NCBI RefSeq assembly: GCF_007994735.1
Contig: NZ_VOIL01000001.1
Location: forward strand, 1-64,000
Direction: 5' to 3'
Source of the DNA: Nesterenkonia populi
GTDB lineage: Bacteria > Actinomycetota > Actinomycetes > Actinomycetales > Micrococcaceae
DNA: 64,000 nucleotides
Part shown: positions 50,838 through 56,445 of the stretch, in pieces
How positions within the stretch are numbered: the first letter of the stretch is position 1
How the letters are laid out: the number at the start of each line of letters is the position of its first letter
Notes under the pieces: model-generated
The model's input: only the letters and a program-made list of their open reading frames with translations
Databases searched by the model: none
Told to the model about the DNA's origin: nothing
Program-made: the position numbers and the translations under genes

Positions 50838-51335
50838 ATGACTGAGCTTTCCGGACGCGAGCGTGTGCAGCAGGACGCCGACCAGCGGGGGGTGAGCATC
50901 GAGTTCGCCGGGCGGGGCCCCGCCCGCTCCGTCGAGGAGGCGGCGGCCGCTCTCGGCGTGGAGCCGGGCGACATCGTCAAGACCCTGGTGGCCCGGGCCA
51001 AACGCACCCAGTCCGCCTCGGAGGCTGAGCTTGTGCTGGTTCTCATCCCCGGGGACAGGGCGGTGGACTGGGCCAAGCTGCGCAGGGCCGCCGGGTTCAA
51101 GAAGATGTCGATGGCCGCCCCTGAGGAGGGCCTGGAGGCCACCGGCTACCGCCCCGGCTCCATCAACCCCTTCGGAACGACGTCGACCCTGCCCGTCTAT
51201 GCGGATGAGAGCATCAGCGGCCGGATCGCCATGGGTGCGGGGGAGCCGGACCTCAACCTCTGCGTGGAGTCCGCGGAGCTCTTCGAGAGCTTCGGCGTCA
51301 CCACCGGAGACATCACCAGGCAGTCCCTCAGCTGA
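50838..51335 (+). CDS. YbaK/EbsC-family aminoacyl-tRNA deacylase
   Basis: A 165-residue protein of the YbaK/ProX family, which hydrolyses mischarged aminoacyl-tRNAs such as Cys-tRNA(Pro). It has GDIVKTLVARA with the catalytic Lys, then LVLIPGDRAVDWAKLRRAAG and GYRPGSINPFGTTSTLPVYAD, the conserved GxxPGSxxPFG loop. Length is typical. It diverges from dnaG across 49 nt, and its last 8 nt overlap the 3' end of the convergent bioN. No clear ribosome-binding site or -10 box is visible. Confidence 0.88.
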   Translation: MTELSGRERVQQDADQRGVSIEFAGRGPARSVEEAAAALGVEPGDIVKTLVARAKRTQSASEAELVLVLIPGDRAVDWAKLRRAAGFKKMSMAAPEEGLEATGYRPGSINPFGTTSTLPVYADESISGRIAMGAGEPDLNLCVESAELFESFGVTTGDITRQSLS

Positions 51336-52005
51336 CCTCATCGATTCCGCGGGCTGAGAGTGCCCGCCCGGTGTCCCGAGCGTAGGCGACCGCGGCCAGC
51401 AGCACCGGGACGGTGCGGGCGCGCAGATCCCGTTCCAGGCCACGGGCACGGGCCTGCTGCTCCGCGGCACGGAACTGGTCGGCCAGGTACGGGATCGCTC
51501 GCAGCATGATCATCGCCGCCAGCACAATCCGGCCCGGCCCGATCCCGACCAGGCGCAGGGGGCGAAGCAGCGCGGAGAACACCCGCAGCAGCTCGGGGAC
51601 AGTGGTGGTCAGGATCATCAGCTGGGCGGCCAGTACACCCGCCAGGACCCGGGTGATCACTTCGACCGCGGTGGCCGCGTCGTTGAAGATCAGCTGCGCG
51701 ACGAGCACAGCGGCCACCAGCAGCCAGACCCGGCGCAGCAGCACGAGCAGCATCCCCAGCGGCACCCGGGCCGTCGCAGCCAGCAGGATGACGGCCGCCA
51801 TCACGCCCGCGCTCACCGCCGGACTGCGGACCACCATGACGACGACGGCGATCCCCGCCAATGCTGCGACCTTCGTCCCTGCCGGGGTGCGGTGCAGGAA
51901 GCCGTGCCCGGGCGCCCTCTGCCCGAAGACCTGATCCCGCGGACGGATCGGCCGGGACCGGCGCCTCGGCCCTTCCTCCGGGGCTCCGGGGGCCGGGGCG
52001 CTCAT
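51328..52005 (-). CDS. bioN: Biotin ECF transporter transmembrane (T) component
   Basis: A 225-residue EcfT protein of the BioN type. After a Pro/Arg-rich N-terminus of about 25 residues come about five helices. The coupling helix shows LRAIPYLADQFRAAEQQARARG, where the Ala-Arg-Gly motif contacts the ATPase. It joins BioM (ATPase) and BioY (biotin-binding S unit). Its ATG overlaps the bioM stop (ATGA), making bioYMN one transcript. The 3' end overlaps the convergent YbaK-type gene by 8 nt. Confidence 0.88.
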   Translation of the reverse strand: MSAPAPGAPEEGPRRRSRPIRPRDQVFGQRAPGHGFLHRTPAGTKVAALAGIAVVVMVVRSPAVSAGVMAAVILLAATARVPLGMLLVLLRRVWLLVAAVLVAQLIFNDAATAVEVITRVLAGVLAAQLMILTTTVPELLRVFSALLRPLRLVGIGPGRIVLAAMIMLRAIPYLADQFRAAEQQARARGLERDLRARTVPVLLAAVAYARDTGRALSARGIDEVS

Positions 52006-52700
52006 TCCTCGGTGCGCCTGATGTACTCGGCGACGATCTCTGCGGGCTCACCGTCGGCGGTGATCTCACCGTCCTGGACGAGCAGGCACCGCTCAGCCTG
52101 TGCGGCAAGATCCAGGTCATGGGTGGCGGTGATGACCCGGATGCCGTGGGCGGCACGCATGCGATCCACCATGGCGGTGAAGCGGCGGGCGTTGACCCGG
52201 TCCAGCAGGGTGGTCGGCTCATCCAGCAGCAGGATCCGGGGGCGCAGCACCAGCACCGTGGCGAGGGCGACCAGCTGCTGCTGCCCCGCGGAGATCTCGT
52301 GGGAGCTGCGCTCGGCAAGCTCGGTGATCCCCAGCTCATCCAGGCACCGCAGAGCCTGCTCCCGCCGGTCCCTCCGGCCCTTCACGCTGCGCCGGAGGGA
52401 CAGCTCCACATCCTCCAGCGGGGTGGGCATCACCAGCTGAGCGGGAGGGTTCGCGAAGACGAAGCCCGCCCGCCGGCGAACCAGTGCGCCGTCGTCGACC
52501 GTGTCCTTCCCCTCCACGGTGACGTAGCCCTCTGAGGGGTCGACCAGGCCGTTGACCAGCTGCAGCAGTGTGGACTTCCCTCCGCCGTTCGGGCCGATCA
52601 CGCTGACTCGCTGCTCGGTCAGCTCCAGATGGGGCACGCGCAGAAGCTCACGGTGCCCGGCAAGAACCCGGACCCGGTCGAAGGCGACGGCATCGGTCAT
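52002..52700 (-). CDS. bioM: Biotin ECF transporter ATPase
   Basis: A 232-residue ATPase with Walker A GPNGGGKST (36-44), signature EISAGQQQLVALA, Walker B RILLLDEPTT and the switch His in ITATHDLDLA. Length and form fit EcfA/BioM, which drive ECF transporters. It lies 7 nt after bioY and overlaps bioN by 4 nt. The adjacent bioY and bioN genes identify biotin as the substrate with good confidence. Confidence 0.9.
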   Translation of the reverse strand: MTDAVAFDRVRVLAGHRELLRVPHLELTEQRVSVIGPNGGGKSTLLQLVNGLVDPSEGYVTVEGKDTVDDGALVRRRAGFVFANPPAQLVMPTPLEDVELSLRRSVKGRRDRREQALRCLDELGITELAERSSHEISAGQQQLVALATVLVLRPRILLLDEPTTLLDRVNARRFTAMVDRMRAAHGIRVITATHDLDLAAQAERCLLVQDGEITADGEPAEIVAEYIRRTEE

Positions 52701-52707
52701 GCGGGCA

Positions 52708-53352
52708 TCACCGGCGGCGGACCAGCAGGTCCGGGAACGCCCGGTGGATCAGGGCGGCTGCCGCCGCGCCGACCAGCGACTTGGCGAGGTCGCCGGGCCA
52801 GAAGACGATGTCGGCCAGGAACGCTTCGCCGAAGGAGAGCTCCATGTTGATCATCATGCCGACGATCCCCATCGGGTGATTGACGAGGACACTGCCGGCC
52901 GCCGCGGCAACGAACAGCAGCGGCACCCACCAGCCGGCCGACGTGCGACGCAGGACACCGCGGGCGATGAGGCCGGTGACCAGGGCCGTCACGGGGAAGG
53001 AGAGCAGGTAGCCGGCGGACGGGCCGGCCAGCGCGCCGAGGCCCCCGGTGAAGCCGGCGAGGATCGGAAGCCCGAGCAGGCCCAGCGCAGCGTAGAGGCC
53101 CGCGGCGGCCGCACCCCGCCATGGTCCCAGGGTGAGCCCGGCCAGGGCGACGCCGAGGGTCTGCAGGGTGATCGGCACCCCGGCGTTGCCGACCGGAATC
53201 GGCGGAGCGAAGGTCAGCACGGCGATCAGCGCGGCAAAGACTCCGACCAGTGCGGCATCCGTCGCCGGGTTGGCTGCGCGGGCTCGGCGAACCGGTGCAG
53301 CCTCGCCGTCGCGGGGAGGGGCAGCGATATTTGAACGGTGTTCATCGGGCAT
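52708..53352 (-). CDS. bioY: Biotin ECF transporter substrate-binding (S) component BioY
   Basis: A 214-residue membrane protein with six helices. It has the BioY signature TFAPPIPVGNAGVPITLQTLGVALAGLTLGPWRGAAAAGLY and GGLGALAGPSAGYLLSFPVTALVTG. An N-terminal soluble arm of about 40 residues starts MPDEHRSNIAAPP; its codons 4-8 are part of an operator palindrome. The start at 53352 is fixed by TAGGCT exactly 7 nt upstream. BioY alone can bind biotin; with BioMN it gives high-affinity uptake. Loss or absence of biotin synthesis genes cannot be judged from this window. Confidence 0.92.
   Translation of the reverse strand: MPDEHRSNIAAPPRDGEAAPVRRARAANPATDAALVGVFAALIAVLTFAPPIPVGNAGVPITLQTLGVALAGLTLGPWRGAAAAGLYAALGLLGLPILAGFTGGLGALAGPSAGYLLSFPVTALVTGLIARGVLRRTSAGWWVPLLFVAAAAGSVLVNHPMGIVGMMINMELSFGEAFLADIVFWPGDLAKSLVGAAAAALIHRAFPDLLVRRR
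53331..53345. promoter_or_regulatory. BioQ-type operator 1, inside bioY coding region
   Basis: TTGAACGGTGTTCAT, containing the 13-bp palindrome TGAACGGTGTTCA at 53332-53344. It covers bioY codons 4-8 (EHRS), +8 to +22 from the leaderless start. It matches the known BioQ consensus TGAAC-N3-GTTAC of corynebacteria closely and is identical to operator 2 over 14 nt. Confidence 0.75.
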
Positions 53353-53359
53353 GCACAGG

Positions 53360-53388
53360 AGCCTATACCGCCGTTGAACGGTGTTCAA
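53360..53388 (-). promoter_or_regulatory. bioY promoter with operator 2 over the -35 box
   Basis: On the minus strand TTGAAC (53388-53383) is the -35 box, then 17 nt, then TAGGCT (53365-53360) as -10, then 7 nt and the ATG. The -35 is the left arm of the perfect palindrome TTGAACACCGTTCAA (53374-53388). All of this lies within the last codons of the TetR-type regulator gene. A dimer bound here would block RNA polymerase directly. Confidence 0.75.
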
Positions 53389-53905
53389 AACACTGGGGCT
53401 CTGGGTCGTGCTCCAGCACCGCTCGGACAGCCTGTGCGTACAGGGTCTCCCCCTGATCCGCGGCGGAGCTGCTGAACAGGCGGGCGTTCTGCTCCACCGC
53501 TGCCAGGCCGAGAGCACACCGCATCAGCACCGCCGCCCGCTCCCCGGCCTGAACGGCTCCGGCACCATCAGCCCGCAGACCTTCGACGAGCGCCGGCACG
53601 GGCGGAAGCTCCGGATCGAGAGCGTAGGCGATCAGCACCAGATCAGCACCGTCACGCAGTGACAGCAGGGTGCTCCGCAGCCTGAGCATCAGCTCGAAGG
53701 GAGGCTCCGGAGCATCCTGAAGCGGGGCGAGCGCCCGCCGGGCGACCAGCCGCAGCAGATCCTGCTTGTTCGGCACGTGGTAGTAGAGAGCCCCGGGCCG
53801 GACGTCGAGCGAGGATGAGATTCTTCGCATGGAGATGTCCTGCAGCCCATACTCCCGGAGCAGCCCATAGGCCGCTTCCACTATTCGGTCCCGCGTGAGC
53901 ACCAT
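53363..53905 (-). CDS. bioQ: TetR-family regulator of biotin uptake (BioQ-like)
   Basis: A 180-residue TetR-type repressor. The N-terminal helix-turn-helix (about 8-52) shows RIVEAAYGLLREYGLQDISMRRIS and GALYYHVPNKQDLL; the C-terminal part is the divergent ligand-binding and dimer domain. Its place directly upstream of bioYMN, and the two BioQ-type palindromes at the bioY start, identify it as a BioQ orthologue by context. Its last residues CFEHRSTAV are encoded by operator 2. It starts 3 nt after the dgt stop, so it is cotranscribed with dgt and is not itself next to an operator at its own start. Confidence 0.8.
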   Translation of the reverse strand: MVLTRDRIVEAAYGLLREYGLQDISMRRISSSLDVRPGALYYHVPNKQDLLRLVARRALAPLQDAPEPPFELMLRLRSTLLSLRDGADLVLIAYALDPELPPVPALVEGLRADGAGAVQAGERAAVLMRCALGLAAVEQNARLFSSSAADQGETLYAQAVRAVLEHDPEPQCFEHRSTAV

Positions 53906-53908
53906 AGT

Positions 53909-55231
53909 TCAGGCGAAAAGACGGTTGACCACGGGTTTTCCATGGACCAGGGTGGCGTACCATTCCAGGGCGGCGCCGTCTGTGAGGGAGGCGACCTGAT
54001 CGATGATGGCACGGTGGCGGGCCGCGTCGTCGTCGGCTGCCCGATAGTCCGCCTGGAACTGCGGATCCAGGAACCGGTCCCCGGTGTCCATCAGCAGGCT
54101 GTGCAGGTCAGTCAGGACGTCCTTCTGGCGGGTGTAGACCGGCATCTGCTCGCGGGAGGCCATGATGTAGTTCGCCGCGATGCCCTTCATCAGCTGGATC
54201 TCCTCCAGCGTCTCCGCGGGCACCACCAGGTCCGCCTCGTGCCGGACCAGCGGCTGACTGCCGTGCGCCTGCCGGGTCGCCGCGTAGATCGCACGGCAGA
54301 ACCGGCCGATGAGCTCCGAGGTCATGTTCTTCAGCCCCGCCAGGGCGCGACGGGAGCCGTCAGACTCACGCACCCAGAAATCCGTGGCGGAGAGCCGAGC
54401 GATCGCAGCGTCCAGCCTGTCTTCCGGGGTGTCCGGCAGATACCACTCCTGAGTGGTCTGGATGACCCGGGCCCGCTGCAGATCATTGTCGAGGAACCCC
54501 AGCTGGAAGCGGCCGGAGACGATCCCGTCCTCGACGTCGTGGACCGAGTAGGCGATGTCATCCGCGGCGTCCATCACCTGGCCCTCCATCGGAGTGCGCA
54601 TCCCGCCGACGGTGCCGCGCATCCACCGGAAGACCTCCAGGTCACCCTCATACGCGCCGAACTTCGGGCTGCGGGCGCCGTTCGCGTTCAGCGGGGCCTC
54701 ATGCGCCTGCCACGGGTACTTCACCGCCGCATCGATCGAGGCCCGGGTCAGGTTCAGCCCCGCCGAGCGCCCGTCCGGGTGGAACCGCTTGGTCTCCAGA
54801 CGAGTCAGGATCCGCAGCGTCTGCGCATTGCCCTCGAACCCGCCGATGCCTGCGGCAAGCTCGTTGAGGACCTTCTCCCCGTTGTGCCCGAACGGCGGGT
54901 GGCCCAAGTCGTGGGAGAGGCATGCGCCGTCGACGACGTCCGGGTCGCACCCCAGCTGCCGGCCCAGCTCCCGGCCCACCTGGGCGACCTCCAGCGTGTG
55001 CGTCAGCCGGGTCCGGGAGAAGTCATCGATATCCGGGGAGACCACCTGGGTCTTCGCGCCCAGGCGACGCAGGCTCGAGGAGTGCAGCAGCCGGGCCCGG
55101 TCCCGCTCAAAGCTTGAGCGGTACACCGACTTGCCGTGCTCAGGGACCCACCGGTCCTCATCCGCCTCCGCATAGCCAGGCGGCAGGGCGGAGTAGTCCC
55201 CCTCGATCCGCTCCACATTCCTCGCACTCAC
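53909..55231 (-). CDS. dgt: Deoxyguanosinetriphosphate triphosphohydrolase-like protein
   Basis: A 440-residue HD-domain dNTPase that cleaves dNTPs to nucleosides and triphosphate, controlling nucleotide pools. Metal ligands are in THTLEV (His78) and CLSHDLGHPPFGHNGE (His107, Asp108). MRTPMEGQVMDAADDIAYSVHDVEDG carries the fourth ligand Asp. Length is typical of type 2 enzymes. The start is a GTG with TAGGCT exactly 7 nt upstream. It is followed by the regulator gene after 3 nt. Confidence 0.93.
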   Translation of the reverse strand: MSARNVERIEGDYSALPPGYAEADEDRWVPEHGKSVYRSSFERDRARLLHSSSLRRLGAKTQVVSPDIDDFSRTRLTHTLEVAQVGRELGRQLGCDPDVVDGACLSHDLGHPPFGHNGEKVLNELAAGIGGFEGNAQTLRILTRLETKRFHPDGRSAGLNLTRASIDAAVKYPWQAHEAPLNANGARSPKFGAYEGDLEVFRWMRGTVGGMRTPMEGQVMDAADDIAYSVHDVEDGIVSGRFQLGFLDNDLQRARVIQTTQEWYLPDTPEDRLDAAIARLSATDFWVRESDGSRRALAGLKNMTSELIGRFCRAIYAATRQAHGSQPLVRHEADLVVPAETLEEIQLMKGIAANYIMASREQMPVYTRQKDVLTDLHSLLMDTGDRFLDPQFQADYRAADDDAARHRAIIDQVASLTDGAALEWYATLVHGKPVVNRLFA

Positions 55232-55238
55232 AAGGATC

Positions 55239-55244
55239 AGCCTA
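55239..55244 (-). promoter_or_regulatory. Candidate -10 box, dgt
   Basis: TAGGCT on the minus strand, 7 nt before the GTG at 55231. Confidence 0.5.
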
Positions 55245-55281
55245 CCGGGCGCACGATGCCGGCACCCCAGCCGCTTCGGCG

Positions 55282-56445
55282 TCAGCCGCCGGAGATGTCC
55301 ACTTCTGCTGCTCTGATCATCTGACGCTGGTCCTCGTTGAGCTCCTGGGAGGCCAGCCAGTCCTCCGGGAGGTGGACCCTCTTGGCAGAGCCGGCGCGGC
55401 CGCGGGGGCCTTCGGCGGGCTCGCCGGGGTAGCCGATGGACTGGTCGAGCCGCCCCAGCAGATCCTCCAGCTGAGCGAGGGTCTCTACGGTGACCAGCTG
55501 AGAGCGCAGCTCGCCGCCGATCGGGTAGCCCTTGAAGTACCAGGCGACGTGCTTGCGGATGTCCTGCATGGCTTTGCGCTCATCCCCGTCGAAGTACGGG
55601 ATGAGCATCTGGGCGTGCTTCAGCAGGGTCTCGATGACCATCGGCAGGTCAGGACGGTGGCGGTCGTCACGGCCCTCGAACGCCGCCTGCAGGTCCCCGA
55701 AGAGCCACGGGCGGCCCTGGCAGCCCCGGCCGACCACGACGCCGTCGACCCCGGTCTGCTCCACCATCCTCACAGCGTCCTCCGCGGACCAGATGTCGCC
55801 GTTGCCGAGCACGGGGATGTCAGTCAGGGAGTCCCGGAGGCGTGCGATCGCCTCCCAGTCGGCTGTGCCGGAGTAGTGCTGGCGCGCGGTGCGGCCGTGC
55901 AGGGCGACAGCCGCCGCCCCCGCGTCACGGGCCGCCCTGCCCGCCTCGATGAAGGTGAGGTGGTCCTCGTCGATGCCCTTGCGCATCTTCACCGTCACCG
56001 GAATGTTCGCCCGGGACGCCTCCCGGACCGCGGTGGAGACGATGGATTCGAAGAGGCGGATCTTCCACGGGAGGGCGGAGCCGCCTCCTTTGCGGGTGAC
56101 TTTGGGGACGGGGCAGCCGAAATTCAGGTCGATGTGGTCGGCATGGTCCTCCTCGACCAGCATCCTCACCGCGTGGCCGGTGGTGACCGGGTCCACGGAG
56201 TAGAGCTGCACGGAGCGTGGCACCTCGTCGGGCTCATGCTTGATGATCCTCAGGGACTCCGGACGCCGCTCCACCAGGGCGCGGGCTGTGACCATCTCGT
56301 TCACGTAGAGGCCGCCGCCGTGCTCGCGGCAGAGGCGCCGGAACGCGGTGTTGGTGATTCCGGCCATGGGAGCCAGCACCACCGGGGTGTCGACCACGAT
56401 GGGGCCCAGCTGCAGGGGCGGGAGGAGCTTATTCAGCGTCTGCAT
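55282..56445 (-). CDS. dusB: tRNA-dihydrouridine synthase
   Basis: A 387-residue FMN enzyme that reduces uridines in the tRNA D-loop. It has VVLAPMAGITNTAFRRLCR at the N-terminus, the catalytic Cys111 in DLNFGCPVPKVTRKGGGSAL, and ALHGRTARQHYSGTADW and GNGDIWSAEDA for FMN binding. I chose the ATG at 56445 (MQTLNKLLPP), which lies inside the last codons of the upstream GNAT gene (17-nt overlap). An ATG at 56505 is possible but the added residues look random. Dus-dgt order is typical of this group. Confidence 0.93.
   Translation of the reverse strand: MQTLNKLLPPLQLGPIVVDTPVVLAPMAGITNTAFRRLCREHGGGLYVNEMVTARALVERRPESLRIIKHEPDEVPRSVQLYSVDPVTTGHAVRMLVEEDHADHIDLNFGCPVPKVTRKGGGSALPWKIRLFESIVSTAVREASRANIPVTVKMRKGIDEDHLTFIEAGRAARDAGAAAVALHGRTARQHYSGTADWEAIARLRDSLTDIPVLGNGDIWSAEDAVRMVEQTGVDGVVVGRGCQGRPWLFGDLQAAFEGRDDRHRPDLPMVIETLLKHAQMLIPYFDGDERKAMQDIRKHVAWYFKGYPIGGELRSQLVTVETLAQLEDLLGRLDQSIGYPGEPAEGPRGRAGSAKRVHLPEDWLASQELNEDQRQMIRAAEVDISGG

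Follow-up and report, generated by a model that had tools for sequence, protein, structure and literature searches.

Why would the same palindrome be written twice into protein-coding DNA, once into the last codons of a regulator gene and once into the first codons of the transporter gene behind it? The question is raised by the first 64,000 nucleotides of contig NZ_VOIL01000001.1 of Nesterenkonia populi (family Micrococcaceae, assembly GCF_007994735.1), here called the window, in which a TetR-family gene is followed by the biotin-uptake genes bioY, bioM, and bioN (bioYMN). We conclude that the two palindromes are very probably operators of the adjacent TetR repressor, which is of the BioQ type, and that they bracket the promoter of bioYMN. 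An earlier annotation made from the letters alone (the sequence-only reading) had pointed to the pair; here it is weighed against related genomes, protein structures, and the literature on biotin regulation.

Two identical palindromes beside a BioQ-type regulator

As the sequence-only reading had it, the 14-mer TTGAACGGTGTTCA occurs on the plus strand at 53331-53344 and again at 53374-53387, 43 bp apart. Both copies share the symmetric core TGAAC-GGT-GTTCA, a 13-mer (53332-53344 and 53375-53387), and their position within the genes was also read correctly, with the lower site at the beginning of bioY (codons 3-7) and the upper site among the closing codons of the TetR gene. Numbered from the A of the bioY ATG (53352), the upper palindrome covers -35 to -23 and the lower one +9 to +21. 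In the whole window, four 14-mers are repeated at distances of no more than 60 bp (41085/41136 with the overlapping 41086/41137, 46986/47004, and the operator pair), and the core TGAAC-N3-GTTCA matches twice in the window versus zero times in 100 dinucleotide shuffles. A genome-wide search for the palindrome upstream of biotin genes, the check put forward with the earlier annotation, found the exact core at two places in the whole 2,551,278-base genome, each of them where the TetR gene meets bioY, and no match to the reversed control pattern.

The TetR N-terminal domain of the protein encoded at 53363-53905 is recognized with 34.8 bits (PF00440, cut-off 24), and the fold matches of its AlphaFold model (mean predicted local distance difference test score, pLDDT, of 95.5) are TetR proteins. 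By sequence as well as fold, the nearest solved relatives are structures of Mycobacterium smegmatis BioQ (5XS9, 5YEK, and the operator-bound 5YEJ), to which the regulator is 31-32% identical over 160-164 aligned residues; in a protein tree it is sister to Garicola BioQ with support of 99/89 among the rows used, which do not include N. pannonica. The name "BioQ-type operators" is backed both by these solved relatives and by the palindromes near bioY and bioB across related genomes described below. The consensus had been quoted as TGAAC-N3-GTTAC, of which the BioQ-type palindrome stands and the ending "GTTAC" does not, the form printed in the consulted part of PMC3398298 being TGAAC-N3-GTTCA. 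That the palindromes are operators of a BioQ-type regulator is a reading well supported by these comparisons.

The promoter architecture proposed earlier, TTGAAC-17-TAGGCT-7-ATG with the -35 hexamer overlapping the upper site, proved correct by sequence and has gained comparative backing. As no clear ribosome-binding site can be seen by eye in the 25 nt before the bioY ATG and the reading frame offers no further start until codon 45, the bioY mRNA is likely leaderless. For bioYMN of Corynebacterium glutamicum, transcription was measured to begin with the first nucleotide of the start codon of bioY, according to the consulted text of PMC3398298.

The palindrome follows bioQ through the genus

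The palindrome near bioY was traced through a sample of 30 genomes of the genus, with a bioQ relative in 27, BioY in all 30, and 36 BioY genes. An exact TGAAC-N3-GTTCA lies within 500 bp upstream of the BioY match at 29/36 genes, and the next-best palindrome of 5-mers around N3 at 5/36. The seven BioY genes without an exact site are those of three genomes without bioQ (G002, G016, G025), that of G009 with a one-mismatch site, a bioY of G010, and, in G010 and G020, the bioY that lies behind bioB, for which the palindrome precedes bioB instead. Counted by genome, an exact site at bioY or bioB is present in 26 of the 27 bioQ-positive genomes versus 0/3 bioQ-negative ones (hypergeometric 0.001, kinship not corrected).

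At six bioQ-linked bioY loci (L091, L092, L101, L105, L107, and L113), a single exact site stands at the -35 position with TAnnnT after it. The scripted search gave no such -10 hexamer after the site at the remaining bioY loci listed; in several of them, inspection by eye shows a -10-like hexamer ahead of the site or overlapping it, TATATT in L094, L096, L099, and L102-L104 and TACAGT in L088 and L123. A single site at either place may thus suffice, and N. populi has both.

Some observations on the genus stand apart from this. The bioY genes (L089-L123) fall into two groups, one 52-74% identical to the window bioY and mostly bioQ-linked, the other about 37-47% identical, in which many genes have a single site over or after a -10-like hexamer. 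G002, G025, and G016 (loci L089, L095, and L108) carry BioY without a bioQ match, and their BioY loci lack the palindrome in both its exact and its one-mismatch form; they offer a natural comparison for BioQ-free biotin uptake. Among the exact sites away from biotin genes, those of L064 (1501, in G003) and L127 (1507, in G020) belong to a different TetR gene with GTGAACAGTGTTCAC and a nearby similar site upstream of itself, which would make them a separate regulator with a look-alike operator; L124-L126, L128, and L133 gave no match to probes for bioQ, bioY, bioM, bioN, bioB, or dgt. Broken reading frames, probably assembly errors or decay, affect bioQ and bioY of N. pannonica (L011/L118) and bioB of G001 (L120, G001:C83).

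Paired sites at bioB appear tied to promoter elements

In the family, bioB was found over the cut-off in 46/100 genomes, and an exact palindrome lies upstream of the gene at all of the 30 best-scoring loci, which were examined over the 450 bp preceding the match. Pairs at a distance of 30-60 bp are present at 13/30 of these loci (12 with both sites exact, one with one mismatch), and each of the 59 remaining half-site permutations gives zero. Exact pairs 35-49 bp apart occur in 28/395 family genomes from 7/32 genera, with none for the reversed control; 26 of the 28 stand at bioB, one is that of the window bioY, and one is an unrelated tandem repeat (L174) away from biotin genes. The spacing at bioB takes values of 42-45, 48-50, and 55-56 bp, and 18 bp also occurs.

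A recognizable promoter, with an upper site reading TTGAAC, TTGTAC, or CTGAAC and TAnnnT 16-19 bp on, is present at 16 of the 27 biotin loci with exact pairs (15 bioB loci and the window bioY) and at N. pannonica bioY, whose upper site has one mismatch. In these 17 promoters the gap from the -10 hexamer to the start of the lower site is 14, 15, or 16 nt (7, 8, and 2 cases) in a search that allowed about 5-22 nt, and the total pair spacing is 42-45 bp. Among the other bioB pairs, 4/26 have TGTACT in the -10 place with a gap of 16, and 7/26 show another layout. The sites seem to be pegged to the promoter or polymerase rather than to each other, and bracketing is favored over looping because the distance of the lower site to the -10 hexamer is fixed while the spacing of the pair varies.

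In a class-wide search of 394 genomes, six other than that of N. populi have pairs; by probe, one of the seven loci has a bioB match and six have a TetR match. The paired layout is therefore claimed for the family, as read from these sequences, and not beyond. As a separate observation, bioQ-like genes of the Propionibacteriaceae hold a one-mismatch palindrome (TGAAC-N3-GTTCG) in their own first codons (L021, L022, and L024 at 5005; L025 at 2936), possibly a sign that a leaderless gene represses itself.

Probable operators within coding sequence

The position of the upper site relative to bioQ was compared at nine non-redundant linked loci, N. pannonica excluded: it lies inside the last codons at 2/9, 2 nt behind the stop at 4/9, and 30-60 nt behind it at 3/9. 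Where the site is inside bioQ it is read in different frames, as FEHRS in the window and LNTVQ in N. muleiensis. Because of this difference in frame, and because the site stands behind the bioQ stop in other relatives, it is by these comparisons the DNA and not the peptide that is conserved at the upper site, and the tail of BioQ that holds it is poorly conserved.

At the lower site, the offset ATG-5 nt-TGAAC is identical in the bioY genes of the window and N. pannonica and in the bioB genes of Garicola (L161) and G011 (L162); the latter two look leaderless, with the downstream site in bioB codons, and at the other bioB pairs the downstream site appears to precede the start codon. With a gene order of bioQ-[pair]-bioB-bioYMN in Garicola, bioYMN of N. 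populi may have inherited the start of bioB when bioB was lost.

One-mismatch sites in the N. populi genome

When one mismatch is allowed, 45 further places appear in the genome versus seven for the reversed control, an excess that base and codon composition may cause. Eighteen of the 45 were examined, namely, 13 loci (L134-L146) and seven chosen for a center of three bases of the A/G-C/G-C/T type found at most bioY and bioB sites, with L141 and L144 in both sets. Open frames of at least 150 codons enclose 12 of the 13 loci, and two of the seven center-type places lie outside likely genes, L218 at 162 bp before a Nudix-like frame and L220 at ~320 bp before a TatC-like frame (both named by eye). 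A biotin gene was recognized by eye at 0/18 of the places examined.

Gene context

The features of the locus are collected in Table 1. The copy of bioM is 64-69% identical to those in the bioQ/bioY loci L003-L009 and 79% identical to that of N. pannonica (L011). Upstream of bioQ, dgt ends 3 bp away, and the two genes probably share a transcript.

Table 1 Features of the bioQ-bioYMN locus (positions within the window)
Feature	Position	Strand	Basis
bioN, energy-coupling factor (ECF) T component (named by context)	51328..52005	-	Pfam CbiQ 2.3e-10
bioM, ECF ATPase (named by context)	52002..52700	-	Pfam ABC_tran 2.4e-25
bioY, biotin ECF transporter S component, predicted leaderless	52708..53352	-	Pfam BioY 1.6e-32
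Lower operator TGAACGGTGTTCA, predicted (operator 1 of the sequence-only reading)	53332..53344	.	Inside bioY codons 3-7
-10 hexamer TAGGCT, predicted	53360..53365	-	Sequence; its TAG is the bioQ stop codon (53363-53365)
bioQ, TetR-family regulator	53363..53905	-	TetR_N 1.4e-08; nearest solved structures are M. smegmatis BioQ
Upper operator TGAACGGTGTTCA, predicted (operator 2 of the sequence-only reading)	53375..53387	.	Covers the -35 hexamer; inside last bioQ codons (read F-E-H-R-S)
-35 hexamer TTGAAC, predicted	53383..53388	-	Sequence; layout common to relatives' promoters
dgt, dGTP triphosphohydrolase	53909..55231	-	NCBIfam NF002829 1.4e-171, over cut-off

Of the bioQ loci examined, only those of N. 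populi (53909-55231) and N. pannonica (L011/L036) have dgt directly before bioQ; at the others dgt gave no match in flanks of 1.5 kb (up to 5 kb for L003-L010, some ending at contig ends). In G029 (L119), a dgt homologue (75%) is divergent to bioB, and a TACACT hexamer precedes the single bioB palindrome by ~20 bp.

The genome has no bioB match over the cut-off (bioF and bioD were not searched for), and the search for bioA was uninformative below the cut-off, where other aminotransferases match; by this evidence N. populi is probably without biotin synthesis of its own. Its BirA (L175:1483-2370) matches PF03099, PF02237, and PF16917 only, with no helix-turn-helix (HTH) domain at E-values up to 0.1. 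Since there is neither bioB over the cut-off nor an HTH match in BirA, BioQ is probably the biotin regulator of this genome, and bioYMN is, by the sequence search, its only clear target found.

Discussion

Proposed repression by bracketing of the bioYMN promoter

From the comparisons above we infer binding, repression, and the start of transcription, and from characterised BioQ systems the direction of the response to biotin. One BioQ dimer would cover the -35 element and another the first ~20 transcribed bases, which, in an mRNA predicted to be leaderless, would also be the first bioY codons. With ample biotin, BioQ would sit on one or both sites and RNA polymerase would be excluded or trapped, and the upper site may in addition halt transcription running on from dgt-bioQ; under biotin shortage, BioQ would let go and uptake would rise.

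Several observations weigh against this proposal. A strict sigma-70 scan (at least 9/12 consensus bases) gives no promoter in 51200-55400, so the bioY promoter call rests on comparison and not on consensus strength. The protein tree does not put the window protein beside M. smegmatis BioQ: 5xs9, a partial sequence there, pairs with L059 of G011, and two long-branch TetR proteins from the N. populi genome itself fall in the same unresolved fork. The 30 genomes contain 69 exact copies, 40 of them at bioY or bioB and 29 away from these genes (the reversed control totals ten), and the bioQ-less G002 and G016 account for three and two of the 29; the one-mismatch excess in N. populi (45 versus 7) may leave room for weaker sites elsewhere in its genome. 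At bioY, only this genome and N. pannonica combine a lower site with one at -35, and in N. pannonica the lower site is exact and the upper one has a mismatch in an assembly that is also frame-broken; the single exact site at other bioY loci means that two are not required. The family counts are not independent either, since the 30 best-scoring bioB loci overlap with the 28 pair genomes (eight in both) and the 17 promoters come from related genomes of four genera, ten of them from one genus.

Alternative explanations

The alternative that survives best grants a function to the upper (-35) operator alone and sees in the lower site a relic of a pair on a leaderless bioB that once followed bioQ, until its deletion put bioY into the bioB start. 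It agrees with the sister position of the window and Garicola BioQ, the nearly equal pair spacing (43 bp in the window and 42 bp in Garicola), the ATG offset common to the bioY starts of the window and N. pannonica and the bioB starts of Garicola and G011, the lack of bioB over the cut-off, and the absence of an exact second site at six further bioY loci whose site stands at -35. This support is limited to the half of the account that concerns origin. The exact lower and mismatched upper site of N. pannonica is the reverse of what a relic should show, and the common offset could reflect a functional constraint. We consider this explanation improbable.

A second possibility is that BioQ regulates bioYMN through two dimers that cooperate by looping or direct contact over about four helical turns. 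The 43 bp between the sites are 4.1 turns, which puts both on the same side of the helix, and identical sites allow two dimers; the spacings at bioB, however, are partly off phase, and in the recognizable promoters it is the distance to the -10 hexamer that stays fixed. A 43-bp loop is also stiff without a bending protein. As the spacing is not phase-locked, looping was judged unlikely as the main mechanism, and we give this form of cooperation a slim chance. Of the earlier suggestion of polymerase blocking and roadblock, or else looping, the occlusion and block are retained and the looping is not favored, the pair spacing being variable while the downstream site keeps its 14-16 nt from the -10 hexamer.

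It is very unlikely that another regulator, BirA or a further TetR protein, uses the sites: the two TetR genes of the genus with similar sites upstream of themselves (L064 and L127) and the exact palindromes elsewhere in two bioQ-less genomes speak for it, and the absence of sites near bioY in the three genomes without bioQ speaks against it, while BirA itself is ruled out by its composition of biotin protein ligase (BPL) domains without an HTH match. That both genes merely happen to encode E-H-R-S with the same codons, in the same frame (GAA-CAC-CGT-TCA), is next to inconceivable, given that in relatives the palindrome follows the stop or is read in a different frame, which rules out conservation of the EHRS peptide, that it is tied to bioQ and biotin genes, and that the BioQ tail is poorly conserved.

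Under the favored arrangement of a repressor bracketing the bioYMN promoter, the comparison of linked loci suggests that BioQ bound at the upper site could also stop polymerase on bioQ itself. Because the site is inside bioQ (two) or 2 nt behind its stop (four) at 6/9 linked loci, a stalled polymerase could miss the bioQ stop, an argument from closeness behind which stands the distance at which polymerase stalls. One might go further and see the upper operator as a feedback device, in which a roadblock before the stop codon yields a stopless message whose product is lost to ribosome rescue, so that BioQ limits its own amount; there is no exact operator before the bioQ gene itself, both exact places in the genome being at the bioQ-bioY junction. 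We hold this idea to be improbable.

Meaning

N. populi, in which a single TetR regulator has one clear target operon, bioB is not found over the cut-off, and BirA shows no HTH match, approaches a minimal biotin switch. To our knowledge the signal sensed by BioQ is not settled, and a strain with uptake alone as a clear target eases the search for it. The family comparison suggests a simple rule for a two-operator promoter, with one site on the -35 element and the other starting near +8 to +10, seen at two target genes in four genera. Leaderless transcripts would further mean that operators can be written into coding DNA.

Comparison with known systems

The regulator resembles M. smegmatis BioQ (5XS9, 5YEK, and 5YEJ with operator DNA) in its TetR fold and in having biotin genes as targets, as far as the consulted sources describe them. 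M. smegmatis BioQ regulates bioFD and bioB (consulted part of PMC9302846), whereas only bioYMN was found in N. populi, whose BioQ regulon has no biotin synthesis genes insofar as there is neither bioB over the cut-off nor a third exact site. Because the bioB of relatives carries the sites, gene loss is the simpler reading of this difference by sequence comparison, compared with a different regulator.

In C. glutamicum, the palindrome TGAAC-N3-GTTCA is predicted upstream of bio genes and bioYMN forms one operon (PMC3398298, in the part consulted); the palindrome form, the bioYMN operon, and the start of transcription at the bioY start codon are as found in or predicted for the window, in contrast to the pair of sites, which the same part of the source does not mention. 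In the BirA-bioO systems of Escherichia coli, Bacillus subtilis, and Staphylococcus aureus, biotin genes are likewise under biotin-responsive repression (PMC11089781, in part), but there the regulator is the biotin ligase with a DNA-binding domain, and BirA of N. populi shows none. A similar layout occurs within the family itself, where the bioB pairs consist of two TGAAC-N3-GTTCA sites as in the window, 15/26 of them with the -35 overlap and the other site 14-16 nt after the -10 hexamer, and differ in serving a biotin synthesis gene instead of the uptake gene bioY. No description of the paired layout was found in the consulted portion of the BioQ literature, and primary BioQ papers or regulon databases may contain one. 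The kinds of regulator and operator are thus known, and the leaderless, promoter-bracketing pair inside both neighboring genes is an unusual variant of them, with a recurrent form at bioB.
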